Shown piece by piece: positions 1 through 14,263 of a stretch of DNA of 40,752 nt. The position numbers were made by a program, and so were the translations under genes. The stretch comes from Candidatus Sulfopaludibacter sp. SbA3 (GTDB taxonomy: Bacteria; Acidobacteriota; Terriglobia; Bryobacterales; Bryobacteraceae): the NCBI GenBank assembly GCA_945890485.1, contig CAMDCN010000029.1, positions 1 to 40,752 of the forward strand, given 5' to 3'. The notes beneath the pieces are model-generated. The model ran no database searches. It saw nothing but the letters and a program-made list of their open reading frames with translations, and was not told where the DNA came from. The first letter of the stretch is position 1; every line of letters begins with the position of its first letter.

Positions 1-70
1 TCTCGATGAGATGGAGCCGCAACACTCTGATCTTGTCGTCCGCGCTCCAATGCCGTCTTTCTTTCTTCAA
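1..70 (-). mobile_element. IS3-family-like transposase (OrfA), N-terminal fragment at window edge
   Basis: Reading the minus strand from a possible TTG at 70 gives a short peptide that runs off the window and includes RRHWSADDKIRVLRLHLIE. This resembles the start of OrfA transposases of the IS3 superfamily, the basic helical segment before the first HTH. The fragment lies directly downstream of the SIR2 gene and in the same frame, after the SIR2 stop at 113-115. A second frame across about 60-150 is also open, so where the element begins is uncertain. The most economical reading is an insertion sequence that landed in the 3' part of the SIR2 gene. Only about 20 residues are visible, so the assignment rests on a short motif. 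Confidence 0.45.
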
Positions 71-112
71 GGTCTCGCTCCAAAGACCTCTTCGACCACT
101 TTCCTTTCGGCT

Positions 113-799
113 TTAACCGATTCCTCCGGTTTCAACTGAGGCAAAACAGCGGCTGTTCTTCTCAAGCAGCTGCTTGACGCGGTTCAGGATATAAAGAACG
201 TTCGGATCGGTAAAGCTGAACCCTAGGAACAGAAAGGTTTTTCTCGCAAGATCGCCTTTGAGCGAGATGGTGAACACCTCGCGCTCATCGTTGTAGCTTT
301 CGTAGTCTTCCTTCGTGAGCACGGCATTGGCGGGGTCGGTTTTATCGCCGTGCATTTTATAGATCGTCACATCGCTACGCTTCCGCGTTACCGAGAAATC
401 TTCTTTCCGGCGCTTTACGTCGATTCGCTTCGTCGCCGCTTCGAACGCCTTTTCCAGGAGGTCGTCGTAGTTGGTCGTCCAAACGGTGTGAACCGGCAGA
501 GATGCGATCAGGTGATGCACATTCGTCAGTTCGGCGTGTTCGAGGAATTCATCGATCAGGAGTTGATTGATGCGGTCGCGGCCCTTGCGGTGATTGACAT
601 GAAATTGTGCGAGCGCAACTAGGTCCGATTCCCGGTCCACATCAAGTTCGAGGTCCGCGGCGATATCCTTCAACAACTGTTTCCAATCGACATAACCGGC
701 TGCCCTTGAGATCCCCGCACCTGCAAATACGGCTGCGTCTCCATCGCGTAGGGCCTGCGCGTATTCTTTCAAGAATCTTTGCCTATCGAGTTTGGACAT
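113..799 (-). CDS. SIR2-like domain protein, C-terminally truncated
   Basis: The likely product is a SIR2-like NAD-binding or NAD-hydrolysing domain of the kind found in many anti-phage proteins. The start is the ATG at 799, preceded by AAGGGA seven bases upstream; an upstream in-frame start at 877 lacks family resemblance. Visible motifs are AVFAGAGIS near residues 23-31 (NAD-binding GAGxS), TTNYD in the middle, KMHGD with the likely active-site His, and LGFSFTDPN (GxSxxD type). The product is only 228 residues. Family resemblance stops abruptly at LLEKNSR (about position 148), after which a short unrelated tail runs to the stop at 113. Normal members continue into further helices or an effector domain. 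With transposase-like sequence immediately downstream, the gene was probably truncated by an IS insertion. Whether the remnant is active is unknown. Confidence 0.8.
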   Translation of the reverse strand: MSKLDRQRFLKEYAQALRDGDAAVFAGAGISRAAGYVDWKQLLKDIAADLELDVDRESDLVALAQFHVNHRKGRDRINQLLIDEFLEHAELTNVHHLIASLPVHTVWTTNYDDLLEKAFEAATKRIDVKRRKEDFSVTRKRSDVTIYKMHGDKTDPANAVLTKEDYESYNDEREVFTISLKGDLARKTFLFLGFSFTDPNVLYILNRVKQLLEKNSRCFASVETGGIG

Positions 800-1230
800 C
801 GAATGATCCCTTCGTGGATGGCAACTGTACCGATTGATTAGCGCTGATCCGGCAAGGAGTTGGTTTGTTACGCCCACTACAAAATCGACCGTGTCGTGAG
901 CGGGGCAATGACTGAGTGGATAGAGCCTTAACCCACGACGAGTCTTGCGTGTTCGGAATCGTAAACAACATTCTTTATCGTGCCATCTTTGACGCGTCCG
1001 ACGGATTCAGCAGCGTCAACCATACGTAGACGTAGACTGACTGGCAGTCCGTCTGCGAAACCCGTGGGTGCCATTTGGACCTGTCCCCTTGCGTGAGACA
1101 CGAGATTAGAAACAGTTGGCTGTCTGGCTGAAAATGGACTTGTCCCAACGCGTGAGACACGAGTCTAGACACTGTGTATGCAGGCGCACTCGGAATCCTC
1201 GTCGCCCTTGCGGGAATTATCACCGGCGAT
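800..1230. other. Intergenic region without a convincing gene
   Basis: About 430 bases separate the SIR2 start from the end of the next minus-strand gene. Short open frames here have no family resemblance and look incidental. The region should hold the SIR2 promoter close to 800-850. Its one clear structure is a pair of imperfect direct repeats at 1076-1172, listed separately. Confidence 0.5.
1076..1172. repeat. Two 38-bp imperfect direct repeats
   Basis: Copy 1 is at 1076-1113 and copy 2 at 1135-1172, 59 bases apart start to start. Both begin TGGAC(C/T)TGTCCC, continue with an almost identical GCGTGAGACACGAG core, and end in TAGA(A/C)AC. They could be the ends of vanished insertion sequences, since IS481/IS3-type elements often end in such GTCTCAC/GTCCC strings. 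Alternatively they could be binding sites for the HTH protein encoded just to the right. I see no transposase between or beside them. Confidence 0.6.
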
Positions 1231-1797
1231 TCACTCCAACAACCCCCGCACACTGGGCACCTTCACCGACGTCGATGGGTCCGGGAATCCATTCAGCACC
1301 AACCATTCCCGTTGGGCAGGGGGCAACTCTTTGTAAGGGACGAGGTTAGGATGCTCCCGGAGAAAAGCCTCAAACGAGGACTCAGCGATTCCGCCTTTGA
1401 AGCGCCGAAGATAGCCACTCTTCAACAAGCGCTGCACCGTCGTGCGGGATCGGCCGATATCGTGCGCCACTTGGCTCACTGTAAGCGGCTGATGCTCCAT
1501 TTCTTCAGCGCGCTTTTCGACACGTTGCTTGTGCTTTCGAAACGCTGCATGTGTGCGGCCATTGGGGTTCTGTCCGCGCTCAATTGCGTCGCGCTCGTGC
1601 CGGTTCCATCGTGGCTTCCTTTGCCACGGCCACTGGTCGCGCGGGAGCCTACGCCGGAGGAACTCCTTGATTGCTTCCGGCGTCCGCTCCAGTTCAGCTG
1701 CTAAAGCTTCAATCGGCCGTCGCACGTCTTCAGGTTCCTTTGCCCATGCAACGACCAAACGGGATTCTGATGTCGTCCAATTTCGCATGCCTCTCAA
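1231..1797 (-). CDS. HTH DNA-binding protein of the island (paralogue 1)
   Basis: A 188-residue basic protein. Residues 5-50 begin NWTTSE and resemble a Myb/SANT-like or sigma-region-4-like helical DNA-binding unit. Residues around 105-140 (LTVSQVAHDIGRSRTTVQRLL) form a clear helix-turn-helix, followed by a GYLRRFKGGIAESSFEAFLREH segment and an REWLVLNGFPDP tail. The same architecture and several of the same words occur in the protein at 2942-3691, so the two are diverged paralogues. A TTG start at 1797 has AAGGAG four bases upstream; the ATG at 1788 is the alternative. It is probably a transcriptional regulator of the island. No enzymatic motif is visible and the exact role is unknown. Confidence 0.65.
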   Translation of the reverse strand: MRGMRNWTTSESRLVVAWAKEPEDVRRPIEALAAELERTPEAIKEFLRRRLPRDQWPWQRKPRWNRHERDAIERGQNPNGRTHAAFRKHKQRVEKRAEEMEHQPLTVSQVAHDIGRSRTTVQRLLKSGYLRRFKGGIAESSFEAFLREHPNLVPYKELPPAQREWLVLNGFPDPSTSVKVPSVRGLLE

Positions 1798-2088
1798 CCG
1801 GCTCCTTAATGGGGGTCTTGAATGGCATCCTAGGGACGCTTCGTTCCTTCAACAATTGGCAAACGTGAGGGCTCGACAGCCCGTGATCGCTTCGTTAGGC
1901 ATTATGTCTTCGGAGCTAAACCTCTGTAATGACGGGAGTTGGATGCCTATGGCATTTGCCTGCTGACGCCGGGAACAGCTTTCGCCGCCACGGTCAAAAA
2001 ATGTCGATCCGTGGTTCTATCCGTGGGCAATATCGGAATCGATTTCCTTCGAGGGATTGCCGCCTTTTCCCAAAGCCATGCATACTCG

Positions 2089-2952
2089 ATGGGAGTGGGC
2101 AAGAACGAATCTTCGCGGTCCAACCGAGGCAGTGATTCCCAGACCGAACTTTCCGATCGAATGCTTCAGCAGTCGCTGAGAGTCTCTTGGATGCGCTTGG
2201 CGGCAGAGGTGGATCGCGTGCTGGAATCCCGGGCGTTTTCACTTTGGACGCGAGCAGTCATCGAGACCGAAGGCGCAATTCCTGACGCAGTGCTTGCCGC
2301 CATCAAGCAGCGTTGCCCCGGGTTCGGGTTGAGCAAAAGGGGCAATCACAATCTGGGCTCGCTGTGGACAGACCTTCTTGCGTGGTCCGAGCAGTTCGTG
2401 TTCATAGAGTCTAAAGCCGGGGGATGGATCGAGGCGGCCCATTACTACTCCGGCATGGATCCTCGTTCGGAGCAAACCTGGCAGCACATGGAGCGATCTG
2501 CGGGTGAGTGGTCTGAGCAGCGGCCAACCCATTACCCCGACTTCACCGAATGGTGGAAGGCGGCTAAGGCAACGTGCCTTGAGATTCCCCCGGCCACTCT
2601 GGACAAAGCCATCGAGGCAATCGCTTTCTCTTGTTGGGCAGGCCTGCTTTTAGCTGGCGGTGTGCAAGAAAACCTCCTGAGAGGCGAGATCGAAACGCAC
2701 TGCCCGGGCTTCCTTACGACCCATCCGATTCCACCGACCAACGACGCGGATGCCTTGGCAAGATTCCGTACTGCAATCGTGGAGAACCTTCTGGCCGGGC
2801 ACGAAGATTCGCAGCGCGTGAAGGCTGCCGCGATGAACCATCTCCGCACTGTCCGCATCACGGCGTACTTCGACGCCTGCCTGGATCATGTTCAGATTCC
2901 GCCCTTTCAGGTCTGGCTGCAGCACGCTGACGAGTTCATCGTTACCCCTTAG
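2089..2952 (+). CDS. Unknown protein with an internal duplication
   Basis: I do not recognise this family. From the ATG at 2089 it has 287 residues; starts at 1939 or 2161 are also possible, and the extra N-terminal residues from 1939 look non-coding. The protein is helical and rich in Trp. It contains a two-fold internal repeat: AFSLW near residues 49-53 followed 23 residues later by CPGF (76-79), and AFSCW near 179-183 followed 22 residues later by CPGF (205-208). The intervening hydrophobic spacing is alike in both halves. There is no signal peptide, membrane segment or catalytic signature I can name. It is the only plus-strand gene of a trio, enclosed by the two paralogous HTH genes, and overlaps the 3' end of the second one by 11 bases. 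Confidence 0.6.
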   Translation: MGVGKNESSRSNRGSDSQTELSDRMLQQSLRVSWMRLAAEVDRVLESRAFSLWTRAVIETEGAIPDAVLAAIKQRCPGFGLSKRGNHNLGSLWTDLLAWSEQFVFIESKAGGWIEAAHYYSGMDPRSEQTWQHMERSAGEWSEQRPTHYPDFTEWWKAAKATCLEIPPATLDKAIEAIAFSCWAGLLLAGGVQENLLRGEIETHCPGFLTTHPIPPTNDADALARFRTAIVENLLAGHEDSQRVKAAAMNHLRTVRITAYFDACLDHVQIPPFQVWLQHADEFIVTP

Positions 2953-3691
2953 CTCCGGCCGCCATCGCTTGTGGCGAACCCTTTGGGTAGCCATGCACCG
3001 AAACCAGCCAATACTGGGTTTCCGGCGCCAACACACAGAAGGAAATCTCCTCAGAATGCTCCTTGCAGAATGCGGAAAAGGACGCTTCTGTGATGCGCCC
3101 GCGCCGCCGCCGCAACCACCCATTTCGCTGCCAGCGACGGACATCGGCTTCTGATACCTCAAGTACGCCAGCCAAGTCCTTGGCCTTGAAGCCACCAAAA
3201 AAGTCAGCCGACTTCCCCAGCCGGCGCAACCGCGCCACGATGGATTCCACGGATCGTCCGAGGCGTCTGGCGATGATCTCCTTGGGCTGATGCACTAGCG
3301 ACAGTAGCACCAGGTCGGTGCCGCGATCCCAATCGCGCCGCCGCACTTCATCCGTGCAGCGAAGCCCGAGTGCCCGCGCTCTCTTGGCGATCTCGCGCCG
3401 GGTTAAGCCTGGATGCCGCGCTTGAATTGCCGAGATCGCGGCAATAGCGGCCTTCTTCCCCAGTGGGTACTGCGAACGCAACAGATCATCGTCTTCGGCT
3501 GTCCAATTGCCCTTCAGCAGATCTTGACTAGCCGGATCACCGGCTGTGGAGACGTAAACTCCGTTTCCGAGTACTTGGCGCAGCGTCACTGTTCGTTCCG
3601 GGTGCGCCTGAAGACGCGCGCGGACATCGAGTGTCGGGAAACCAGAGTGCCCGGGGGAAGAAAGGCGCTGGGGGGGAGGTCCCTTCGACAT
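2942..3691 (-). CDS. HTH DNA-binding protein of the island (paralogue 2)
   Basis: A 249-residue protein with the same layout as the product of 1231-1797. A NWTAEDDDLL segment (the counterpart of NWTTSE) begins the conserved part. A second Myb/sigma-4-like unit covers the middle, and near the C terminus there is an HTH (LAGVLEVSEADVRRWQ) with GWLRRRRGRITEASFSAFCKEH and a QYWLVSVHGYPKG tail. The chosen ATG at 3691 has AGGTGG upstream; a GTG at 3700 is an alternative. The gene is transcribed divergently from the sigma-factor operon beginning at 4035. It therefore shares a regulatory region with that operon and could control it, as a local regulator in a mobile island. DNA binding is well supported; target and ligand are unknown. 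Confidence 0.65.
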   Translation of the reverse strand: MSKGPPPQRLSSPGHSGFPTLDVRARLQAHPERTVTLRQVLGNGVYVSTAGDPASQDLLKGNWTAEDDDLLRSQYPLGKKAAIAAISAIQARHPGLTRREIAKRARALGLRCTDEVRRRDWDRGTDLVLLSLVHQPKEIIARRLGRSVESIVARLRRLGKSADFFGGFKAKDLAGVLEVSEADVRRWQRNGWLRRRRGRITEASFSAFCKEHSEEISFCVLAPETQYWLVSVHGYPKGSPQAMAAGAKG

Positions 3692-4034
3692 GACTACCAC
3701 CTGTTCAGTCTTTACATTGTTCAGTTGCCGTTCTTGCGCTGCGACTGCCTCTCGGTCAGGGCGACCTCAGCCGTGTGGTGCTCAACGCCGGCAAACTTTG
3801 CCAATAAGCTGCCCACAACACTAGAAGTCCTGACTCAGGCGAAAGGTCCGATTCTCATGCGCAACCGGTGTTGGATGGCCAGTGTTAGAGTGACAATTCA
3901 GTCCGCGGATGACTAGCAAGTAACTGGAAAAAAGTTTTGGGACTTTTTGGGCTGCCCGGATCTTCTATTGAGTAGAGGGGCAGACTCAGTCGGCATTCCT
4001 CTAGTACGTCGGCCAAAGGTCGGCAGGGGTTCTC
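3692..4034 (+). promoter_or_regulatory. Divergent intergenic region with a putative ECF-type promoter
   Basis: This 343-base region separates the HTH gene from the sigma-factor operon. At 3926-3949 there is GGAAAAAAGTTTTGGGAC followed by TTTTTG, and about 15 bases later TCTATTGAGTAGAG (3964-3977). From memory, this resembles the layout upstream of many planctomycete and acidobacterial ECF sigma genes, with a GGGACTTTTT-like -35 element and a TCTA-containing -10. That would fit autoregulation. CTGCCC (3952-3957) and GGGCAG (3978-3983) form an inverted repeat enclosing the proposed -10. The ribosome binding site (AGGGG) before the ATG at 4035 is weak. Promoter use is inferred. Confidence 0.35.
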
Positions 4035-4655
4035 ATGGCAGCAAACCACGATAATCGCCCTGATAGCTTCGACTTGGAAGTGATTCCACCCTTCTGGCTT
4101 CGCGACGATGAAGAGGGCAAGCAACTGCTGGATGCAAGGGTCGTAAAGGTTGCCAGCGAGAACTGGCATTGGGCATTTCGATTTGCCAGAAATGAGTTGC
4201 ATGATGGTGCCGGCGCTCTTGAGATCGTCGAGTTCGTGGCAATCGAAGTTTCCAAGCGCCTCCGTGCCGAACCAGCCGTCCAAACGAACTTGGCCGCTTA
4301 CTACAAGACTGCATACGTGAATCGTGTACGGGCATTGGCTGAGCGAAATGGCCGGATCCGCTACGAAGGCAGCCCCAACGACCTCGAACTTAACCACCAG
4401 CCGATCGCCGCTGACTGGTTCAAGCTCTTCGAGAACCGGATGATTCTGCAAGCCCTGCTCCCGTTCACCGCTGAGCCGATTCGCCGCATTCTCAACTACC
4501 GACTCCTGGATTTCTCGTGGAAAGAAATTGCCGGGCAACTCGGGGTTACAGAGAAGCAGGCGAAATCACGGTTCTATTACGGAGTTCAGCAGGCACGGGA
4601 TGAGCTATCCGCCGCCCAAAAGAAGCGGGCCCGCAAGGAGGCATCCGCGCCATGA
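4035..4655 (+). CDS. ECF-like RNA polymerase sigma factor
   Basis: A 206-residue sigma-70-family protein. Residues about 35-110 have the helical pattern of region 2 (AFRFARNELHDGAGALEIVEFVAIEV, then AAYYKTAYVNRVRALAERNGRI). Residues about 135-190 are a good region 4 HTH (YRLLDFSWKEIAGQLGVTEKQAKSRFYYGVQQAR) that would read the -35 element. No long insertion or extra domain is visible, so it is of ECF size. It is the first gene of an operon; its stop overlaps the start of the anti-sigma gene (ATGA at 4652-4655), the usual arrangement for a sigma factor and its cognate inhibitor. Region 2 is divergent, so the exact ECF group cannot be named. It presumably drives its own operon and perhaps further island genes. 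Confidence 0.8.
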   Translation: MAANHDNRPDSFDLEVIPPFWLRDDEEGKQLLDARVVKVASENWHWAFRFARNELHDGAGALEIVEFVAIEVSKRLRAEPAVQTNLAAYYKTAYVNRVRALAERNGRIRYEGSPNDLELNHQPIAADWFKLFENRMILQALLPFTAEPIRRILNYRLLDFSWKEIAGQLGVTEKQAKSRFYYGVQQARDELSAAQKKRARKEASAP

Positions 4656-5395
4656 AGATGATGGATCCAGATCAAAGCTTTACTCCGCGTGAGGAGCGAC
4701 AACTTCTGCAAAGTGTCGCCGCGCTGCTTGAAGCAAACCTCTCGCAACCCGACACAACTCAATGCCCGTCCTGCACAGATTTGAGGAATCTGGCAAGACG
4801 CCGAATTCGCTTGGTCGACGCTGATTCCCTCGTAGATCACGTCGGCGTTTGTCCGCGGTGCTTCAAGAGCTACTCGGAGTTTCGGGCTCAGCATAAGACG
4901 CGCGTCCGAGCCCTGTACACCGCTTTTGCCCTGGCCGCTGGCGTGGTGATTGCGGTTGTACTGTTGCAGCCGATGCGTCCACATGTGGCTCAGCCCAATC
5001 CTCCAGCGCCGATCATCGCCAAGCTGCCCGAGCGGCCAGCTCCCGCAGTGGCCGCCGCCCTGGACCTCACGAAGTTGGGCTTGGCGCGGAGCGATCCTCC
5101 GGCAGCGGGGGATCGATCGCAAGTGGGCGCTTTGCCATGTGCCAGAGTCACTCTTTCCATCCACCTGCCCGTCGGGAGCGAGGACGGCCGCTACGATGTG
5201 GCGCTGCTGCGCAAGTCCGGAGAATCCGTGGTGTCATCAAGCGGGAATGCGACGCTTCAGAACTATGTTGAAGTGCTCGGCGTGGAAATTGATTTGTCCT
5301 CTGTGGCTCCAGGCAACTACAGCCTCGCGATTCGACGGGTTGGATCTTCCTGGAGAGAGTATCCGATTGCTTTGGTCCCCAAGGAGGCCCCATGA
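4652..5395 (+). CDS. Transmembrane zinc-finger anti-sigma factor
   Basis: A 247-residue single-pass membrane protein. The cytoplasmic N-terminal part carries C38-x2-C41 and then H63-x3-C67-x2-C70, the last being the Hx3Cx2C signature of ZAS (zf-HC2-type) anti-sigma domains. A hydrophobic helix lies at about residues 88-106. It is followed by a Pro/Ala-rich linker and a beta-rich C-terminal domain (about 155-247, ending in a GNYSLAIRR type strand) that would lie outside the cytoplasm. The gene overlaps the sigma gene upstream and the S41-like gene downstream by four bases each. It is predicted to hold the sigma factor inactive until a signal or protease acts on it. The two protease-like genes that follow make proteolytic inactivation plausible, but no cleavage site is evident. 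Confidence 0.75.
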   Translation: MKMMDPDQSFTPREERQLLQSVAALLEANLSQPDTTQCPSCTDLRNLARRRIRLVDADSLVDHVGVCPRCFKSYSEFRAQHKTRVRALYTAFALAAGVVIAVVLLQPMRPHVAQPNPPAPIIAKLPERPAPAVAAALDLTKLGLARSDPPAAGDRSQVGALPCARVTLSIHLPVGSEDGRYDVALLRKSGESVVSSSGNATLQNYVEVLGVEIDLSSVAPGNYSLAIRRVGSSWREYPIALVPKEAP

Positions 5396-6612
5396 CGACT
5401 GACGCTCCCGAATTCTCACGAGCGATTCGAGAACAACTGCTCGAAGCGATTGCCACCACGGTCCAGGCAAGGTTTTTCGACCCGAAGTTCAATGGCCGCA
5501 ATTGGCAAACTCTTGCCCAACTGGCCAGAGAAGGCATCTTGCAAGCCACTAACCCGGTTGATTTCGAATCACGTGTCCAAAACTTGCTCGAACAACTCGC
5601 AGTCCAGCCGGTTGGATTCTTTCATCGCAATCGTGCCAAGGTTCCCGTACACCATGTGCTTCGGGCCACGCTTTATCCACACGACGGCGCATGGGTGTTT
5701 GAAAATGTCCAGGAGGACGGGCCAGCTTTTGCCGCACAGATCAAGCCAGGTGACACGCTGCTCGCCGTCAACGATACGCCCGTAGCGCCACCCGAGCCAG
5801 TGCGATTTTCTGCCGGCGCGCCGGCGTCGATTCTAGTTCGGCGCCGCAACGGTAACGAGGAACGCATCGTGCCGCAAGCGCTTTCGCCAGACGAGGCGCG
5901 CCGCAACTCCGTTCGCACGGACTTGCTCGAAAATGGCGTCGGCTATTTGAAGATCACTCGATTCCCTGGATTGGTCGGAGTCGACATGGCACGAGACATC
6001 GACGCCGCTGTTCAAACACTCGCTGAATGCCGCTCGCTCTTGGTGGATCTGCGTGGAAATCCCGGAGGTGGTTCCGCGAATTTGCGCCTGATGAGCTACT
6101 TGACGCCGGACAAAAAGCCTGTCGGCTACAGCCTGACACGGCCGCGTGCAGAACGTGGCTATCGCCGGGAGGAACTGGCACAGTTCCGTCGCATTCCGAC
6201 CAGCAAGCTCGCCCTCATCGGGCTCGCTCTTCGATTCAAATTTGCGGACAAATCCATCGTCGTTGTCACCGAGGGTTTGAAGCCGCCGAGGTTCCAAGGC
6301 CGTGTCGTACTGCTGGCGAACGAGCACACCGTAAGCGGCGCTGAGATCGTCGTAGGTTTCGCAAAGGACCACGGGTTGGCACGGATCGTGGGCACGCGCA
6401 CTGCCGGGCGGCTCTACGGGTGGAGTTCGTTCCCGATCCAGCAGGACTACCGGCTCACCATCCCGGTGAGCAACTACGTCACATGGGAAGGAAAATGCTT
6501 CGAAGGCACCGGCATTGAGCCTGACGTCGAAGTGCATTTTTCTCCCGAAGCCGCGCGGGAGGGACGAGATTTGCAGTTGGAGGAGGGGGCCAAGATCGCC
6601 GCCAGTCTTTGA
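5392..6612 (+). CDS. PDZ-S41 (tail-specific) peptidase-like protein, catalytic Lys replaced
   Basis: A 406-residue S41-family protein: an N-terminal helical domain (about 1-75), a PDZ domain (about 95-145, with EDGPAFAAQIKPGDTLLAVN) and an S41 core (about 185-395). The core shows VGYLKI, the LLVDLRGNPGG motif, and LANEHTVSGAEIV, in which S315 sits at the nucleophile position. Twenty-five residues later, where tail-specific proteases have the general-base Lys (TFGKG-like), the sequence is TAGRL with R340. The enzyme may therefore use another base, have altered specificity, or bind peptides without cutting. No signal peptide is seen, whereas most S41 enzymes are exported, so it is predicted to be cytoplasmic. 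The start overlaps the anti-sigma stop (ATGA at 5392-5395), indicating translational coupling. A role in degrading the anti-sigma cytoplasmic part is a hypothesis. Confidence 0.78.
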   Translation: MTTDAPEFSRAIREQLLEAIATTVQARFFDPKFNGRNWQTLAQLAREGILQATNPVDFESRVQNLLEQLAVQPVGFFHRNRAKVPVHHVLRATLYPHDGAWVFENVQEDGPAFAAQIKPGDTLLAVNDTPVAPPEPVRFSAGAPASILVRRRNGNEERIVPQALSPDEARRNSVRTDLLENGVGYLKITRFPGLVGVDMARDIDAAVQTLAECRSLLVDLRGNPGGGSANLRLMSYLTPDKKPVGYSLTRPRAERGYRREELAQFRRIPTSKLALIGLALRFKFADKSIVVVTEGLKPPRFQGRVVLLANEHTVSGAEIVVGFAKDHGLARIVGTRTAGRLYGWSSFPIQQDYRLTIPVSNYVTWEGKCFEGTGIEPDVEVHFSPEAAREGRDLQLEEGAKIAASL

Positions 6613-6647
6613 CCTGAACAGAGAGTTTTCTCGGAGGAACTAAATTT

Positions 6648-9299
6648 ATGGCCGTTCTGAATCCAAGGCGCAAGGCTGCCTCAGCTTTTCGTTGTCTCGG
6701 GATCCTGGTTTTCGCTGTGTGGCCGCCAATACTCGTCGCACAGTCAGATAATCCGAACGCCCTGCTCGCTGAAGCGGAGCGGCTCTACTGGCTGGACAAC
6801 TGGGCAAAGTCCCGGCCGTTGTACGAAAAGGCGGAACCTCTGTTCGAAGCCAAGGGCGACCTTCGAAATGCCGCCCTTGCCCGTATCAGCCGCTTGCGCG
6901 CCGACGCAGATCGGATTTCCTACCCAGAGGTCAGTCAGCAACTCGCAAAAGAACTCGAGAACCCTATCGTAGTCAGCGATCCTCAAGTCCGCCTACGCTG
7001 CCTGATCGTCAAGGCAACGATCGACCTGAGTATCGACCCACTTCTTTCCGCCGGCACATGGCGAACCGCTCTGGAGTTGGCCAACTCTATCGGAGAGACG
7101 CGTTGGGTCACGAGAATTCAGGGCGAACTGGGCATCATCTCTTTTCTGGATGGCAAGAGCACGGAGGCCCGCGGGATCATGACCAAAGTGATTCAATCTG
7201 CGGCGGCCGTGGGCGACCTTGCGGGTCAGATTCGCGCTCTCTCGCTCATTGGTGTGGGCCTGTCGGAACTGGGTGAGTATGATCGATCGCTCCGCTTCTT
7301 CGACCAAGCCTTGGACCTCTCGCAAAAGAATCCGGACCTGCGCTTCCCGTTGATGGCACACATGGGGAAGGCTTCTGCCCTGAACGCATTAGGACGAACG
7401 CGCGAAGCGCAGGACTTCCTGAAGCGGGCAATCCGCTTCGTCGAAGAAACGGAAATGAACGTCTATCGTGCGGACATTCTGCTGGCACTCGCTGGAAGCG
7501 CGGCGAGAAGCAAAGACTATCCCACAGCCGTGGAGTTGCTCACGGAGGCCGTCCGATCGGCAGAACGGTTCGAGATGCCCCGTCCCCGAGCTGCTGCCTT
7601 GCTCAGCCTGGCTGCCATCTATCGCGAAATGGGCGATTCGAAGAAGGCGGACGAGGCTGCTTCGGAAGCAATCGTCGCAGCGAGGAAGCTCGTGGACATG
7701 TACGTCCTGCCACGGCACCTCGCCTCGGCGGCGGCGATCAAAGTGAACAGCGGCAAGATAGCCGAGGCGGATTCACTTTACGAAGAAGCGGGCGACCTCA
7801 TCGAAGCAATGCTGGTGAACGTACCGAGCCCAAGACTGCGCAGCACTATGGTGGCCGCAATGAGCGAAGTCTACGTAGGGCACTTCGCACTCGCCGTAGA
7901 AGGGCTGAAAGACAACCAGCGTGCGTTCGAGATCCTGGAGCGCGCCCGAGGTCGTGCCGCGGCAGACGCCCTTCGATCTTTGCCAACACAGCAGTCCACT
8001 CCTCAAGGAACGAAGGCCCCCGCGGAGCGCCAAATTGCCGCATTGCAAATTCGCCTCCAGCAAGCGGCAACGCCCCGGATTCGAAAGGACCTTCTCTACC
8101 AACTTGCATTGGCCGAAGAGGCGTTGTCACCACTCCACTTCGATCAGCATCGCTTTACTCAATTCCTGCGCGGCGACCCGGTTTCGCTCGAAGCTTTGCG
8201 GAAGACTATGCGCGATGACGAGCTGATCGTCGAATACGTGCTTGCAGATCCAGCATCTTTTGCAGTAGTCATTTCAAAGGCTGCCATTCGCATTCAAAAG
8301 TTGGCGAGCAAAGCCACGATCGAGGGGCTGGCCCAACGATTCCACGGCGAACTGAAGAACAAAGAGTCGGTTGCAGCGCCTTCCGGCGTGACGCTGGCAT
8401 CCGAACTGCTCCGGCCCATCCCAGAGATCTTGGGCAGTAAGCGGGTGATCTTTGTCCCTGACGGAATGCTTCACCTCACGCCGTTTGACGCCCTCCCATC
8501 CGGGCGCACTGGGTATTTGGGAGATCAGAAGGTTGTTTCAGTAGTGCCCTCCGCGACCGTCCTCCATTTGATCCGTACCAATCGCCCCATCACGACTCAG
8601 GCCGCACGCCTGCTTGCAGTTGGTAACGTGGCGTACCCCGCCAGTGGACGTTCTCCAAACACCACGCGGGAAACGCGCGGAATGTTTGATGCCTCCGGTA
8701 GCGGTATTACTGCGCTACCGTCGACCGCAGATGAAATCGCAGCAATTGCTGCTCTCGCCGGCCCCAAGTCGGTGGTCTTGGATGGACGGGCGGCGACCGA
8801 GAAGGCCCTCAAATCTCAGCCGCTCCGGTCATTTTCGGTTTTGCACCTGGCAGTCCACGGAGTCGCCGATTCCAAGTTTCCAGATCGTTCCGCCCTCGTG
8901 TTCGGTTCTGACGCCGCTGCTCATGAAGACGGATTACTTCAAGTCCGGGAGATTGAATCGCTCCCGCTCAATGCAGACCTGGTGACGTTGTCCGCCTGCG
9001 ACACCGGTGCCGGTCGCATACAAGGCCAAGAGGGCGTTGCCAACATTGTTCGCGCCTTTCTGTACGCTGGCTCGCGGTCCATTGTCTCGACCCTCTGGGA
9101 AGTGGACGACATCTTCACTGCGGCTCTGATGAAGCGCTTCTACGCGAACCTGGCCGCCGGACGCGATGTCAGCGACGCCTTGAGGCTAGCCAAGTTTGAA
9201 ATGCGCCGTCGCCTTGGCCCCAATGCCACGCCTTACTTCTGGGGTCCCTTCACTGTCGTCGGCGATGGGCTCACCCGCATTAAATTCACTCCTCGCTAG
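6648..9299 (+). CDS. Exported TPR-CHAT protein (caspase-like peptidase)
   Basis: An 883-residue protein. Residues 1-31 form a signal peptide or N-terminal anchor (RRK, then a hydrophobic stretch ending ILVAQ). Residues about 38-400 are a run of TPR-like helical repeats, then a helical linker. Residues about 510-880 are a CHAT domain, clan CD like caspases and separases. The catalytic pair is visible: H737 in LHLAVHGVAD and C784 in TLSACDTGAG, with the usual spacing and the following REGVANIVRAFL-like and GSRSIVSTLWEVDD segments. A GGAGG ribosome site precedes the ATG. The gene follows the S41-like gene by 35 bases and closes the sigma operon. In known systems the TPR part senses a partner and unlocks CHAT cleavage. 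Here the natural substrate candidate is the extracytoplasmic domain of the anti-sigma factor. Catalytic competence looks intact; the substrate is inferred. Confidence 0.88.
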   Translation: MAVLNPRRKAASAFRCLGILVFAVWPPILVAQSDNPNALLAEAERLYWLDNWAKSRPLYEKAEPLFEAKGDLRNAALARISRLRADADRISYPEVSQQLAKELENPIVVSDPQVRLRCLIVKATIDLSIDPLLSAGTWRTALELANSIGETRWVTRIQGELGIISFLDGKSTEARGIMTKVIQSAAAVGDLAGQIRALSLIGVGLSELGEYDRSLRFFDQALDLSQKNPDLRFPLMAHMGKASALNALGRTREAQDFLKRAIRFVEETEMNVYRADILLALAGSAARSKDYPTAVELLTEAVRSAERFEMPRPRAAALLSLAAIYREMGDSKKADEAASEAIVAARKLVDMYVLPRHLASAAAIKVNSGKIAEADSLYEEAGDLIEAMLVNVPSPRLRSTMVAAMSEVYVGHFALAVEGLKDNQRAFEILERARGRAAADALRSLPTQQSTPQGTKAPAERQIAALQIRLQQAATPRIRKDLLYQLALAEEALSPLHFDQHRFTQFLRGDPVSLEALRKTMRDDELIVEYVLADPASFAVVISKAAIRIQKLASKATIEGLAQRFHGELKNKESVAAPSGVTLASELLRPIPEILGSKRVIFVPDGMLHLTPFDALPSGRTGYLGDQKVVSVVPSATVLHLIRTNRPITTQAARLLAVGNVAYPASGRSPNTTRETRGMFDASGSGITALPSTADEIAAIAALAGPKSVVLDGRAATEKALKSQPLRSFSVLHLAVHGVADSKFPDRSALVFGSDAAAHEDGLLQVREIESLPLNADLVTLSACDTGAGRIQGQEGVANIVRAFLYAGSRSIVSTLWEVDDIFTAALMKRFYANLAAGRDVSDALRLAKFEMRRRLGPNATPYFWGPFTVVGDGLTRIKFTPR

Positions 9300-9351
9300 A
9301 CGCGGAAAGGGGGATGGTTGTGCGATGTCCATTCCGCCACGGGGACCAAGT

Positions 9352-9633
9352 CTATTTGTTTGCATATGCAGCCCGCTGCGTCGCAATCCGACGGCAGTCC
9401 TCAATAAAGCGCTCCACGTCCAGTGGATCAAACCTGAGGGGACTCTTGCCAGGACCCATTTTGACTGCGGGCAGATATGGCTTCCGCTTACCGGAGGCGT
9501 GCTGGATAACCCACGACTTGCTGACACCCAGTTTTTTCGCCACATCGGTTGCGCGTACCAGTTGCCGGATTGGGCCAGTACTTTCAGATTTGGACGGGAG
9601 CGGGCTTCCTTCTGCCCCAATGAGTCGCTGCAT
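9352..9633 (-). CDS. Small HTH protein, excisionase-like
   Basis: A 93-residue protein with a MerR/HTH_17-type DNA-binding fold. VRATDVAKKLGVSKSWVIQHA is the helix-turn-helix and wing start, followed by LPAVKMGPGKSPLRFDPLDVERFIEDC, the typical K/R-F-x-P-x-DVE-x-FI ending of excisionases and related binding-domain proteins. The start at 9631-9633 has GAGGT upstream. It lies immediately downstream of the integrase on the same strand, 77 bases apart, the usual place for a recombination directionality factor. It is convergent with the CHAT gene. A role as transcriptional regulator instead of Xis cannot be excluded. Confidence 0.7.
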   Translation of the reverse strand: MQRLIGAEGSPLPSKSESTGPIRQLVRATDVAKKLGVSKSWVIQHASGKRKPYLPAVKMGPGKSPLRFDPLDVERFIEDCRRIATQRAAYANK

Positions 9634-9710
9634 GTTTACCTCGAGGTCAATCGTCTGGCGATCAGATCCTCACTGTATGCGACTTCGTCAAGTACACCAA
9701 ATGACTTTGC

Positions 9711-10955
9711 CTATTCAGGTGTTTCGCCAGCCTTTTCGGGGCCGCCCGCGATCTGTGCGTCTAACGCAGCTACTGCGGACCGGAGGCTTTCTGGAATCAC
9801 TTTTGCATAGTGCTTCAGGGTAGTGTATGGATTCGAATGCCGAAGATGTCGCTGCATGTCTTTGACCGTGGCGTGGGTCTGCATGTGTGTGGCAGAGGAG
9901 CGCCGGAAAGCCTGGAAGGTAACCCCGGCCACTCCGGCCTGCACAGCCAATGGCTTGAGGTGCCGCTTCAGGAAATTGCCGACGCCAAAGGCCGAACCAG
10001 CCGCGTTGGGAAAGAGGAATGCACGAGGATCGGTGCGATCGTTATGCCCCAAGATCCACGTCTCGACTTCGTGCCTCAGATCAGGAGGAATCGGAACAAA
10101 ATTGTCGCTTTCCGCAGTCTTCGTATGGCCTATTCGCCCTTCGCCGCGCTGGCGCTCCTTAAGCGCCTCATCGATTCTGATTTGCTCTCCCTCAAAGTCC
10201 TCGATCCTAAGGGCCAAAACTTCCGAGGGGCGTAAACCGCAAACCGAAAGTAGACGCAAGATCAGGTGTTCTCTTGGCGGGGCAATCGCCATTATTGCCC
10301 TTAGTTCGTCAATTGAAAGAAATCGTTCGCAAGATTTGTGGGTTAGGTTTGGCAGAGTCAGTTTCCGCGCTGGATCTCGTTCAATCCATGCCTCTTCGGC
10401 GGCGAAATTGAAGCTCGCCTTTAGATACGTGCGAACCCGTCCCACGGCCGAGGAACTATAGCCAGCCTCCGCCATTTGATTCAAAAGCCTTTGCACGGAG
10501 ACAAGGGTGATCTCATGGAGGTGCTGGTGCCCGATGGTGGGGATGACATGCTTATTGAAGAGATACTGCAGGTCCTCCCGAGTCTTGGTAGACCAGCGCC
10601 CTTCGCGAACGGCGGAAAACGATGACCACAAATCCGCGAACGTAATCAACTTGCGAGTCTGCGGTTCCCGTCGCCCTACACACTCTTCGATGTAATTGGA
10701 AAGCCGGACCAACGCCTCATGTTTTGGCATCGACGCAGGCCCAAGCGTCTTTTCCTTCTTTTTGCGAAGTTTCTGGCCATCCCGCGATGTAGTCGAGATG
10801 TGAAAGAAGCCAACCCACACCTTTCCGACCCGTGGCCTGTCCATCTTTGCTACCCAGCCTTGGGGCGGGGAAGTCTCTGGGAGTAGTGGGCCAAGACGCC
10901 GAATGTCGAAGTCAGTTTCGCGATCAGGATACGGAGTTTTGCCTTTCACCACCAT
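9711..10955 (-). CDS. Tyrosine recombinase (phage-type integrase)
   Basis: A 414-residue site-specific recombinase. The N-terminal part (about 1-100) is basic and arm-binding-like. The core-binding SAM-like domain spans about 103-195 (TFADLWSSF to FNFAAEEAWIERDPA). The catalytic domain follows to the end. Active-site residues visible are R242 (CGLRPSE), K279 (HTKT), R351 within FQAFRRSSATH, H373 (LRHSN) and the nucleophile Y383 (LKHYAK). The first His of the HxxR box is Gln (Q348), as I recall for a known subgroup, so it need not indicate loss of function. The gene starts 101 bases from the 3' end of tRNA-Val and points away from it, the classic layout of an island integrated at a tRNA 3' end. 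Confidence 0.92.
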   Translation of the reverse strand: MVVKGKTPYPDRETDFDIRRLGPLLPETSPPQGWVAKMDRPRVGKVWVGFFHISTTSRDGQKLRKKKEKTLGPASMPKHEALVRLSNYIEECVGRREPQTRKLITFADLWSSFSAVREGRWSTKTREDLQYLFNKHVIPTIGHQHLHEITLVSVQRLLNQMAEAGYSSSAVGRVRTYLKASFNFAAEEAWIERDPARKLTLPNLTHKSCERFLSIDELRAIMAIAPPREHLILRLLSVCGLRPSEVLALRIEDFEGEQIRIDEALKERQRGEGRIGHTKTAESDNFVPIPPDLRHEVETWILGHNDRTDPRAFLFPNAAGSAFGVGNFLKRHLKPLAVQAGVAGVTFQAFRRSSATHMQTHATVKDMQRHLRHSNPYTTLKHYAKVIPESLRSAVAALDAQIAGGPEKAGETPE

Positions 10956-11056
10956 GGCCGAAGTATACGGCCCGTCGGGAAATCTGACAAATGCGACTGG
11001 GTGGGCTGTTGGGTGGGCTGTTTTCCGGAGGGGGAGCCGTAAACTATTGAATCTAA

Positions 11057-11133
11057 TGGTGGGCGCGCAGGGACTCGAACCCCGGACCTCCTGCGTGTGA
11101 AGCAGGCGCTCTAACCAGCTGAGCTACGCGCCC
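11057..11133 (-). tRNA. tRNA-Val (anticodon CAC)
   Basis: The minus strand folds into a complete cloverleaf of 77 nt including an encoded CCA end. The acceptor is GGGCGCG/CGCGCCC, the D arm GCTC/GAGC, and the anticodon stem CCTGC/GCAGG with loop TTCACAC (anticodon CAC, reading GUG). The T arm contains GGTTCGAGTCC. Discriminator A is at 11060 and CCA at 11057-11059. It is the apparent attachment site of the island to its left. Confidence 0.97.
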
Positions 11134-11187
11134 AAGAACTTAAAGGTTACCACAACCACGCCCCATTCCGCATGGTACTCTGACGCG

Positions 11188-13533
11188 ATGGACGCCCTCG
11201 CGTTTCTGGTAGCGATCCTGGCCCTAGCCATCGCGTGGGCTATGCGCTCCCGTGCCATCGCCCTCGAACGGCACACCGCCTATCTAGAACAGCGCCTGCG
11301 CGAACAAGCCACCCGCCTCTACGCCATCGAGTCCTACCTCACACCGCCCCAGTCCATCGCGCCAGAACCCATCCCTCCTCCCGTCCCACAAACTGTCGAA
11401 CCGCCGCCCATCCAACCGATTATCCAAGCCGTTCCCCAACCCCTACCTATCGATCCCACCACCCCTGCCGTCGACCTCGAATCCGTCATCGGCAGCAACT
11501 GGCTCAGCAAACTCGGCGTCTTCATCCTCCTCATTGGTCTCGCGCTCTTCCTCGGCTTCTCGCTGACCACCATGGGCCCCGCCGGTCGTGTCGCCGTCGG
11601 CCTCGCCACAGGCCTCGCCCTCCTCGGCGTCGGCATCGCCGCCGAGCGGAAAGCCGACTACAAAGTCCTCGGCGGCGCTCTCATCGGCGGAGGCTGGGCC
11701 GCGTTATATTTCACCGCTTACGCCGGCCACGCCCTCCCGGCCGCCCGCGTCATCGACTCTCCCTTGCTCGGCTTCACCTTCCTCCTCGCCGTCGCCGCTG
11801 GCATGGTCGCCCATTCGCTCCGCTACGACTCCCAAACCATCACCGGTCTCGCCTTCGCCGCCGCCTTCCTTTCCATCGCCATCTCCCCCCAAAACCAGTT
11901 CGCCCGCCTCTCCTCGATTCCACTCCTGGTCACTCTCCTGGCGGTCGCTTGGCGCAAGAACTGGCAACCTCTCGCCGGAGCCGGCGCCGCCTTCGCCTAT
12001 TTCGCCTACGCCCTAAACCTCGCCACCGGCGACGGCGACACCAATATCACCCGCTTCGGCGAACCCATACTCTGGACCTACTGGATCCTCCTCGAAGCCT
12101 TCGATCTTCTCAACCTCCGCCGCGCTGTCGCCTATTTCCCTGTCTTCCTCTTTAACGCCATCGGCTTCCTCCTCGCCTCAGTCTCCACTTGGCCACCCCG
12201 CGATTTCGGCCCCCCCGATCTTCTGCTCCTTTCGATCGCCGGAGCCTACTTCCTCTCTTCCCTGCTCCGCTACGAACGCCGCCCCGACGGTGAATACGCC
12301 GATCGTTCCCTGCTCGGAGGCTTCCGCGCCGCAATCACCCTATCGGCCATCTTCGCCGTCGGCGCCATCGTTCTCCGCTTCCCCGAACTCCAACAGATCT
12401 ACGCTCTCTCCCTACTCGCCCAGTTCGTCGCCGTCGCCGGATGGTGGTACCGCAGCGCCTATCTCCGATGGCTCGCCGCGTCACTCTTCCTACTCCCCCT
12501 CGCCCGGCTCGTCATCCATGCTCTCGACCATCACGGGCGATTCGAATATCTCGGCCGGCAATGGAACGACTGGGCCCCCGCCGCCGCCCTCCTCGTCATC
12601 CTTTTCTATGCCAACCGCCTGGTCTTCCTAGGCGGCCGGCCCTACACCTTTGCCGGCTCCATCGTCCTCGCCGTTCTCATTGGCGCCGAGGCGACGTTCG
12701 AAACCCGCCCCCTCATCTACACCCTCGCCGCCGCCCTCCTCTGGCTCGCCGCCCGCCGCACGGATGCCACGGACCTCCGCCTCCAGGCTGCTCTCCAAGC
12801 CGCCTTCAGCCTCGTCAGCCTCTTCGATCACAAGCCCGCCGATTTCCCGCTCCTCACCATCGGTCTCCCCGCGGTCCTCTATCTGGCCGCCGCCATCCGT
12901 TTCACCGAACGCGAAACGCTCCGTTTCGCCCTCTACGCGACAGGCAGCATTTTCCTCGGCGCGCTCTTCTCCCGCATAATCCCCGAACCCCATCGCGCCC
13001 TCGCCGCCGGCCTCGCAGCCCTCGCCCTCTGGCTCTACGGCCTGCGCACCAACTCGTGGGGAGCCTACAGCGCCACCCCCGTCCTCGGCTTCGCCGCCTT
13101 CGCCAACTGGCTCGACGTCACCCCCATCGGCTGGGCTCGCGTCCCCAGCCTTCTCCCCTTCTTCGCGATGCTCTACGCCGCGCCAAAATCACCCGCCCGC
13201 CCCGAACTCGCCCTCCGCATGCTCCACGGAGCCACCGGCATCTTCCTGCTCTACTACCATCTCACCGACGTCGTCTCCAAGGGCTCACTCACCCTCGCAT
13301 ACGCCGCGGCGGCCGCCGCCCTCCTCGTCGCGGGCTTCCTGCTCCGCGATCGATTCAGCCGGCTGGCCGCTTTGGTCCTCTTCCTGTTCTGTCTCGGCAA
13401 ACTCTTCTTCCACGACTTCAGCGAGCTCGATACGCTAAGCCGGATCCTATCCTTCATCGGCCTGGGCTTGCTGCTCATCAGCGCCTCCTGGGCCTACTCC
13501 CGCTTCAAAGACCAGATCCGCCGATACCTCTAA
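11188..13533 (+). CDS. DUF2339 polytopic membrane protein
   Basis: A 781-residue integral membrane protein. Residues 1-25 are a membrane helix, followed by a short coiled-coil-like stretch and a Pro-rich linker (about 50-95). The DUF2339 signature SNWLSKLGVFILLIGLALFLG follows at about 105-125, then some twenty hydrophobic helices to the end. The family is widespread and of unknown function; a role in the envelope is usually assumed. The gene has the strongly C-ended codon use typical of the rest of this genome and begins 55 bases beyond the tRNA, so it belongs to the chromosomal backbone rather than the island. Its stop overlaps the stop of the convergent gene at 13530-13533, leaving no space for a terminator between them. 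Confidence 0.85.
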   Translation: MDALAFLVAILALAIAWAMRSRAIALERHTAYLEQRLREQATRLYAIESYLTPPQSIAPEPIPPPVPQTVEPPPIQPIIQAVPQPLPIDPTTPAVDLESVIGSNWLSKLGVFILLIGLALFLGFSLTTMGPAGRVAVGLATGLALLGVGIAAERKADYKVLGGALIGGGWAALYFTAYAGHALPAARVIDSPLLGFTFLLAVAAGMVAHSLRYDSQTITGLAFAAAFLSIAISPQNQFARLSSIPLLVTLLAVAWRKNWQPLAGAGAAFAYFAYALNLATGDGDTNITRFGEPILWTYWILLEAFDLLNLRRAVAYFPVFLFNAIGFLLASVSTWPPRDFGPPDLLLLSIAGAYFLSSLLRYERRPDGEYADRSLLGGFRAAITLSAIFAVGAIVLRFPELQQIYALSLLAQFVAVAGWWYRSAYLRWLAASLFLLPLARLVIHALDHHGRFEYLGRQWNDWAPAAALLVILFYANRLVFLGGRPYTFAGSIVLAVLIGAEATFETRPLIYTLAAALLWLAARRTDATDLRLQAALQAAFSLVSLFDHKPADFPLLTIGLPAVLYLAAAIRFTERETLRFALYATGSIFLGALFSRIIPEPHRALAAGLAALALWLYGLRTNSWGAYSATPVLGFAAFANWLDVTPIGWARVPSLLPFFAMLYAAPKSPARPELALRMLHGATGIFLLYYHLTDVVSKGSLTLAYAAAAAALLVAGFLLRDRFSRLAALVLFLFCLGKLFFHDFSELDTLSRILSFIGLGLLLISASWAYSRFKDQIRRYL

Positions 13534-13739
13534 TCGGCATCCTGCCGCGCGGCCAGCATCAACGAAAGCCCAAGCGCGCAGAGGATGCCCCCAACCAACG
13601 GCTTCACCGCCGACATCTCCGTACCATATACCGATGCGTACGCCAATCCCTGCATGGCCAGCAACCCCATCCCGGCAATCATCAGCAACAGCCCGATTCC
13701 GAAACTAGATCGCATAACGTCTCCGTACGTGAGTCCCAT
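13530..13739 (-). CDS. Small two-helix membrane protein
   Basis: A 69-residue protein with two hydrophobic helices (about 13-33 and 45-63). I do not recognise a family. Its ATG overlaps the TGA of the upstream sigma gene (ATGA at 13738-13741 on the minus strand), so it is probably translationally coupled to it and could act as its membrane-bound partner or anti-sigma factor. It has no zinc-finger motif, so this remains a guess from position. It overlaps the DUF2339 gene tail to tail. Confidence 0.6.
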   Translation of the reverse strand: MGLTYGDVMRSSFGIGLLLMIAGMGLLAMQGLAYASVYGTEMSAVKPLVGGILCALGLSLMLAARQDAD

Positions 13740-14263
13740 CAGGCGGCCTCCGGCATCACGTTCACACGCAATCCCATCACCGTCCGCAGGCTCTGCTTGA
13801 TCCGGAGCAGGCGCACCCGCACCGACACCGGACTAATTCCCAAACGCGGGGCGATCTCGTTGCTCGACCAGCCCTCCAGATAATGCTGTTTCAAAAGCTC
13901 CCTGTCCACCGGCGAGCAGAACGAGAGAATCTCGCCCACAGCGCTCGCATCGTAGTCCGGCTGAATCACGGCCGAGTTCTCACTCAGCTCCTCAGTCGCC
14001 TTCTTGCGCCGGTAATCCACGCGCACCAAATTCTTGGCGATCGTGTTCACCCAAACGCCCACGGCGCCTTGGCTCTTCAGTTGCGCGCGGCATTCCCATC
14101 CCCGCGCCCAAGCCGCCTGGGCAATCTCTTCGGCTAGGTCACTCCGCACGCCGGTGGATAACAAGAACCGCACCGTGCGCGGATAACCCTGACGATAAGC
14201 CTTTTCGTACTGCTGCTCCGTCAAAACTTCGGCTGTTTGTTCAATCCCGTTTGCGGTAACCAT
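13739..14263 (-). CDS. ECF RNA polymerase sigma factor
   Basis: A 174-residue sigma-70-family protein. Region 2 covers about residues 25-95 (DLAEEIAQAAWARGWECRAQL, then VWVNTIAKNLVRVDYRRKK, with the usual core-binding and -10-reading pattern). Region 4 covers about 110-160 (RELLKQHYLEGWSSNEIAPRLGISPVSVRVRLLRIKQSLR), a clear HTH. The ATG at 14263 has AAAGGG upstream. It is followed by the overlapping small membrane protein. The signal it responds to is unknown. Confidence 0.85.
   Translation of the reverse strand: MVTANGIEQTAEVLTEQQYEKAYRQGYPRTVRFLLSTGVRSDLAEEIAQAAWARGWECRAQLKSQGAVGVWVNTIAKNLVRVDYRRKKATEELSENSAVIQPDYDASAVGEILSFCSPVDRELLKQHYLEGWSSNEIAPRLGISPVSVRVRLLRIKQSLRTVMGLRVNVMPEAA

Follow-up and report, generated by a model that had tools for sequence, protein, structure and literature searches.

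A 40,752-nucleotide stretch of DNA from the acidobacterium Candidatus Sulfopaludibacter sp. SbA3 (contig CAMDCN010000029.1; the whole stretch is called the window here) carries four adjoining genes, which encode a sigma70-like protein (SIG), a putative anti-sigma factor (ASF), a PDZ-S41 peptidase-like protein (S41) and a TPR-CHAT caspase-like protein (CHAT). Comparison with related loci shows that these genes, as judged from sequence, are a conserved module recurring on acidobacterial integrative and conjugative elements (ICEs), with varying cargo around it. Our reading, with a probability of roughly 0.5, is that mobile elements carry the set as a protease-gated sigma switch, which probably controls transfer genes. 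The four genes lie as follows:

4035..4655, + strand: SIG, sigma70-like protein; region 4 recognisable but below cut-off, region 2 unrecognised by profile
4652..5395, + strand: ASF, putative anti-sigma factor; C..H-x3-C-x2-C N-terminus, single hydrophobic segment, conserved outer domain
5392..6612, + strand: S41, PDZ and S41 peptidase-like protein; no signal-like N-terminus, Gln-Pro at 72-73 replacing Ser-His
6648..9299, + strand: CHAT, TPR-CHAT caspase-like protein; hydrophobic N-terminus, H737 and C784 intact

All four reading frames are intact. A preliminary description of this DNA reported four same-strand genes with ATGA-type overlaps and a 35-base gap, and the coordinates, strand and spacing are as it claimed: SIG and ASF overlap by 4 nucleotides (nt), as do ASF and S41, and 35 nt separate S41 from CHAT.

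Protein families and conservation of the set

The CHAT gene is well recognised by Pfam (CHAT, PF12770, 1.6e-64, 218.6 bits against a cut-off of 24), which also finds TPRs, and the S41 gene matches Peptidase_S41 (7.4e-30, 104.1 bits against a cut-off of 24), its PDZ domain falling below cut-off. For SIG, Pfam gives region 4 alone (20.9 bits against a cut-off of 25.7); at an E-value of 0.01, Sigma70_r4_2 was found in 18 of 37 SIG homologues and Sigma70_r2 in 3 of 37. ASF had been described as a zinc-finger membrane anti-sigma factor. The residues C38, H63, C67 and C70 (C..H-x3-C-x2-C) and the hydrophobic segment are conserved among homologues, giving ASF the H-x3-C-x2-C motif and membrane segment by which zinc-binding anti-sigma (ZAS) factors are recognised. 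The zinc-finger label itself fared less well, as no zinc-finger anti-sigma profile matched and the sole Pfam match, DUF7569, was below cut-off at 16.2 bits.

A profile of S41 was scanned against a collection of 84,980 species, and the best 80 of 129 relatives provided the 80 loci compared here. All 80 belong to Acidobacteriota judging by their titles, the genus names being ones that we take to fall within this phylum; L117 is from a cultured organism, Acidipila rosea DSM 103428. CHAT is present in 74 loci and ASF in 58, with SIG directly adjoining ASF in 50. Five of the six loci without CHAT (L077, L102, L111, L120 and L126) lie on contigs that end less than 200 bp upstream of S41, and in the sixth, L121, the contig ends 67 bp downstream of S41. 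Where the flanks are fully in view (33 loci, each reaching 3 kb or more upstream and 9.5 kb or more downstream), CHAT is found in all 33 and ASF in 32, the exception being L114. Searching 61 genomes with ASF alone gave 15 places, spread over 12 genomes and counting the window's own, with S41 near 12 and CHAT near 12 of them; in the window genome's second copy they are about 15 kb off.

Conserved co-occurrence in one order had been anticipated for the four families. Co-occurrence was borne out and extends beyond close relatives, with the families recurring in most of the 80 loci; the order was not, as CHAT-S41 facing ASF-SIG is the commonest layout (47 of the 58 loci with ASF). The order SIG-ASF-S41-CHAT is a minority form common to the window, L047, L049 and L050 (L048 is cut), and on the S41 tree the order of S41 and CHAT changes five times, an upper bound. 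A fixed operon order was dropped as a defining trait since it varies among loci. Defence cargo was also dropped as a conserved part, because cargo is mostly unique to each locus: of the 67 genes found between S41 and ASF, our own clustering leaves 57 without a homologue in any other locus, and genes in this interval include MacB/FtsX, GH42, AIPR, methylases and helicases. The four genes persist while the cargo changes, as is expected of an element backbone. From element to element SIG and ASF themselves diverge strongly: leaving aside the near-copy L034, identity with the window protein is 11-29% for SIG and 22-29% for ASF.

Topology and catalytic residues

Topology was judged from hydropathy counts rather than with a signal-peptide program. 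Among proteins with the N-terminus in view, a hydrophobic N-terminus was found in 55 of 56 CHATs vs 3 of 79 S41s, and 52 of 56 ASF homologues have a membrane-like hydrophobic segment of 19 residues. From these counts CHAT is predicted to lie outside, S41 inside in the cytoplasm and a single-pass ASF between them, in a layout that appears constant. The earlier statement that CHAT is exported with H737 and C784 intact agrees with an intact dyad and a hydrophobic N-terminus, export being a prediction. Aligned rows keep the His in 72 of 74 and the Cys in 74 of 74 cases; two rows have Arg in the His column.

The proposed role of S41 as a protease became doubtful, as the window copy is without the Ser-His pair kept in most relatives. 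Among homologues, 69 of 80 retain the His and 72 of 79 the nucleophile Ser. The window protein has Q72 and P73 in place of Ser-His and retains S315 and E371, and so lacks the complete set of what we take to be the tricorn-type catalytic residues (Ser-His, Ser, Glu). Fifteen rows, the window included and the partial row L102 not counted, are without one or both residues and make up two supported clades of the S41 tree, (i) eight rows in which Pro stands in for His (window, L047-L050, L052, L061 and L067) and (ii) seven rows that have Gly or Cys instead of Ser (L055, L057, L066, L084, L096, L101 and L109). Parsimony requires only one loss of the active site.

Location on integrated elements

Downstream of CHAT, the following features mark the presumed site of integration:

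9352..9633, - strand: small HTH_17 protein adjoining the integrase; excisionase-like by position only
9711..10955, - strand: tyrosine integrase (Pfam)
11057..11133, - strand: tRNA-Val (CAC), presumed integration site; 3' end faces the integrase

An integrase at a tRNA gene is an arrangement by which ICEs are recognised, and the island at a tRNA gene claimed in the preliminary description is real. Its history was read from L047, the same stretch in genome G010. Both copies sit at the same tRNA-Val with synonymous divergence (dS) of 0.05-0.30, against 0.64 for a neighbouring core gene and 0.83 for rpoB outside the island. The ratio of nonsynonymous to synonymous divergence in this comparison is 0.03 for SIG, 0.49 for ASF, 0.125 for S41 and 0.07 for CHAT. 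In L048 (Bryobacter sp.) a CHAT 96% identical to the window's lies near a different tRNA gene (Val-GAC).

Of the 80 stretches, 18 contain an integrase, 18 contain a tRNA gene and 14 contain both, and 6 have a RepB-type primase; at least one of integrase, VirB and RepB occurs in 33. Coordinates of both are available for 13 loci, 12 of which have integrase and tRNA gene at most 0.5 kb apart, and the tRNA genes of the 14 loci with both are varied (Val, Thr, Ser, Gly, Arg, Leu, Asn, Met, Lys, Glu). There was no empty site among the relatives read, and no S41 relative in PLSDB plasmids (tblastn) or IMG/VR viral contigs (profile scan).

Separately, L130 (contig C8 of genome G000) has at ~7660-7710 an imperfect copy of a tRNA-Val 3' end, possibly an old attachment site. 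It is no more than a candidate attL, since the match is imperfect and the flanks give no help.

Association with VirB conjugation genes

VirB genes are found in 14 of the 80 stretches, and in 11 of these the nearest one is on the opposite strand, 27-1323 bp upstream of SIG (L063 repeats L062, and the distance in L052 was measured from ASF). Pfam confirms VirB2, VirB3, VirB4, VirB6, VirB9, VirB10 and the RepB primase, one representative each; VirB11 was named from sequence, outside this confirmed set. VirB is likewise divergent from SIG in genomes G145, G281, G203 and G110, and G203 also encodes a TrwC relaxase and a coupling protein (Pfam). Thus, VirB is divergent upstream of SIG in 14 of 18 cases linked to a type IV secretion system (T4SS) without L063, or 13 of 18 discounting L068. 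Within the window's own S41 clade, L052 combines tRNA-Ser, an integrase and VirB2-3-4-9-10. The only VirB9 (CagX) of the window genome is on a different contig from the window, 2.4 kb from the second SIG.

The link was also seen in a draw of 247 genomes from the phylum, the window's included, in which S41 (E-value 1e-40) occurs at 10 places in 9 genomes and CagX in 37 genomes, 35 over the family cut-off. Five of the 10 S41 places are within 20 kb of CagX and one more at 45 kb; assuming a genome size and a number of CagX genes, a rough binomial estimate gives 6e-8 for this 20-kb link. G219 has a VirB4 piece near S41, and G105 has CagX below cut-off only, 105 kb off. The S41 of G189, with no CHAT nearby and no CagX in the genome, is probably not a member of the set. 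CagX was detected in 8 of 9 S41 genomes vs 29 of 238 others (Fisher p 1e-6), in 7 of 9 vs 28 of 238 when over cut-off (p 2e-5), and in 7 of 8 vs 29 of 238 without the window genome (p 6e-6). The VirB link, absent from the preliminary description, points to control of the element itself.

A promoter-like element upstream of SIG

The sequence before SIG contains one further feature:

3938..3980, + strand: promoter-like element upstream of SIG; GGGACTTTTT, 17 nt, TATTGAGTAGAGGGG

Its likeness to sites in L049, L050, L072 and L073 was first noticed by eye. A strict pattern drawn up from this group of sites occurs at four places in 1.5 Mb, at SIG in L049 and L050 and at VirB2 in L072 and L073, but not at the window's own site; the numbers for five shuffles were 0, 0, 3, 0 and 1. 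A matrix was built from the window, L049 and L050 sites. At p 0.05 it matched 12 of 50 SIG-upstream regions when scored against the rest of the same loci (Fisher 2e-7) and 9 of 44 against their own dinucleotide shuffles (Fisher 6e-5), compared with 2 of 44 for the reversed control (p 0.95). The element recurs in a minority of loci, before SIG or the divergent operon, two VirB2 operons included. That most loci lack it is consistent with divergence of the sigma factors, but restricts how far the claim reaches. A symmetric motif within the SIG-VirB intergenic regions was no better than shuffles, and a k-mer search for a common promoter was set aside, its most frequent words being confined to one group of loci. 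By eye, L072 (from 16726) and L073 (from 16929) share 150-300 nt of similar appearance between the promoter-like element and VirB2, which may be a structured leader.

A possible protease-gated sigma switch

Bacterial caspase-like proteases are known mostly from immunity and cell death. The present set is repeatedly kept together on transferable DNA in soil Acidobacteria, often by DNA-transfer genes, and so may switch transfer on. In the pathway that we infer from sequence, a single-pass ASF would hold SIG at the membrane. Exported TPR-CHAT would sense an envelope or cell-contact signal by its TPR part, placing the trigger outside the cytoplasm, and would then cut the outer domain of ASF. Cytoplasmic PDZ-S41 would bind or trim what is left of ASF on the inside, acting as a protease in copies with an intact active site and as a PDZ adaptor in the window's clade. 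Once free, SIG would act at its own promoter and, in some elements at least, on the adjoining VirB operon, turning transfer functions on. The most specific form of this proposal, in which conjugative elements own a caspase-gated sigma switch with a surface-sensing CHAT that cuts ASF, SIG that starts VirB and an S41 that is a pseudo-protease adaptor in some lineages, is tentative, somewhat short of even odds. If true, the timing of DNA transfer would rest with a caspase-like protease, which would thereby control horizontal gene transfer; the set would also be a CRISPR-free counterpart of the TPR-CHAT/sigma pathway, making the origin of that pathway testable, and would provide a handle on the regulation of conjugation in Acidobacteria.

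Several observations weigh against this interpretation. Many stretches, often short contigs, lack the expected company: 47 of 80 have none of integrase, VirB or RepB, and 66 of 80 have no VirB. In window positions 1-14000, where the left end of the contig is cut, there is no VirB gene, relaxase or coupling protein, and in the window genome's second copy (the C10 element) the VirB operon precedes SIG on the same strand instead of being divergent. The SIG-like gene beside VirB in L068 sits 6 kb from ASF, VirB is located elsewhere in L056 and L095, neither SIG nor ASF is in view in L065, and the near-identical maps of G281 and G203 are not independent. The promoter signal falls to 7 of 42 (Fisher 8e-4) without L072 and L073, which had been seen by eye before the test; no such element is present in L097, L122 or the second copy in the window genome, and several matches are weak. 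SIG could be a different kind of DNA-binding protein, given that the window copy is below the Pfam cut-off and region 2 is seen in 3 of 37 members. Lastly, the window S41 is probably not an active serine protease, as its Ser-His pair is replaced, yet selection appears to maintain it.

Alternative explanations

The preliminary description favoured defence, and the corresponding alternative is a cargo module in which phage or envelope damage activates CHAT, whereupon SIG is freed for defence genes or the cell is killed. A TPR-CHAT protease does act in type III-E immunity (PMC10028731, accessible text), and AIPR, methylase and helicase genes are among the cargo. The gene called SIR2 and taken as support is actually the N-terminal part of ThsA (Thoeris), at 113-877 and outside the set; it has 254 amino acids vs 478 in the profile, with a stop at 113 near the contig end and the partner gene not in view. 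Direct support for defence is lacking: PADLOC recognises no known system in the four genes, with no match to SIG, ASF or S41 and weak, partial ones to CHAT, and the defence-like genes are variable cargo around a module that stays. With VirB divergent upstream of SIG in most T4SS-linked cases as well, the defence explanation is unlikely.

An envelope-stress regulator directed at the host, riding on mobile elements and chiefly controlling chromosomal genes, would account for the sigma or zf-HC2 genes near other CHAT genes of the window genome (nine CHAT genes in total) and for the promoter element often missing upstream of VirB. It is improbable in view of how often the S41-containing set is found on elements, beside VirB, and of the low identity of SIG and ASF between elements, unlike one shared host regulon. 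SIG-ASF and CHAT-S41 could also be independent pairs gathered in one region of the element with no joint pathway: 47 of 58 loci have them as separate, convergent units, and in 18 of these the distance exceeds 3 kb. This seems very unlikely when ASF accompanies 32 of 33 fully seen S41 loci, all four genes share a strand in the window type, L124 and L125, and the ASF-only search returns S41 and CHAT at 12 of 15 places each.

Relation to known systems

The closest parallel for a protease-gated sigma switch is type III-E CASP/Craspase (Csx29 TPR-CHAT, Csx30, CASP-sigma), for which the accessible text of PMC10028731 proposes that protease cleavage relieves sigma inhibition. As far as that text goes, both systems encode a TPR-CHAT protease with a sigma factor and its inhibitor; however, the Craspase protease is RNA-guided, whereas here CHAT is predicted to be exported, ASF is a membrane protein and S41 is added. 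The set is not a member of type III-E, which calls for a CRISPR array and Cas7-11: in agreement with the preliminary description, window positions 1-11200 contain no repeat array, and no Cas family was found among nine window proteins scanned (Pfam). RseA/DegS/RseP and comparable systems for extracytoplasmic function (ECF) anti-sigma factors likewise involve a membrane anti-sigma factor inactivated by stepwise proteolysis, as proposed here; the differences are that caspase-like CHAT replaces DegS, S41 has no signal-like N-terminus and the set is on mobile elements. S41 is related by profile to IRBP, CtpB and tricorn, but is encoded with CHAT, is without a signal-like N-terminus in 76 of 79 cases and has lost its active site in two clades.

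Transfer of ICEBs1 is regulated by ImmA/ImmR. Transfer of ICEclc is under the sigma factor RpoS in the accessible part of its source (PMC3395598). Both elements resemble the switch proposed here in that a sigma factor or protease governs their transfer, and differ in that here sigma factor, anti-sigma factor and protease would all be element-encoded. ICEs were previously noted in acidobacteria (PMC3158045, accessible text). No description of the four-gene set was found among the papers listed, in a search outside which lay bioRxiv preprints and most subscription papers, and a term search of the accessible text of PMC7159879, PMC3174227 and PMC3158045 returned nothing on it.

Neighbouring genes and other observations

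Upstream of SIG, the window encodes three further proteins, two of them with a helix-turn-helix (HTH):

1231..1797, - strand: second HTH protein of cluster c3
1939..2952, + strand: uncharacterised protein of cluster c8, found in 7 loci, in 6 of which c3 is present too
2942..3700, - strand: cluster c3 protein with an HTH, divergent from SIG; 21 of the 80 loci have homologues, frequently next to SIG

Positions 1231-3700 thus hold a c8 protein flanked by two HTH proteins of one family (c3). Two imperfect 41-nt direct repeats, 59 nt apart, lie at 1076-1175. In the C10 element of the window genome, L178 encodes at 4949-6343 an ArdC-type antirestriction protein with a KfrB domain. Other CHAT genes of this genome (L027, L030 and L031) adjoin a sigma factor and TPR protein, an ECF-type sigma factor and a subtilase.

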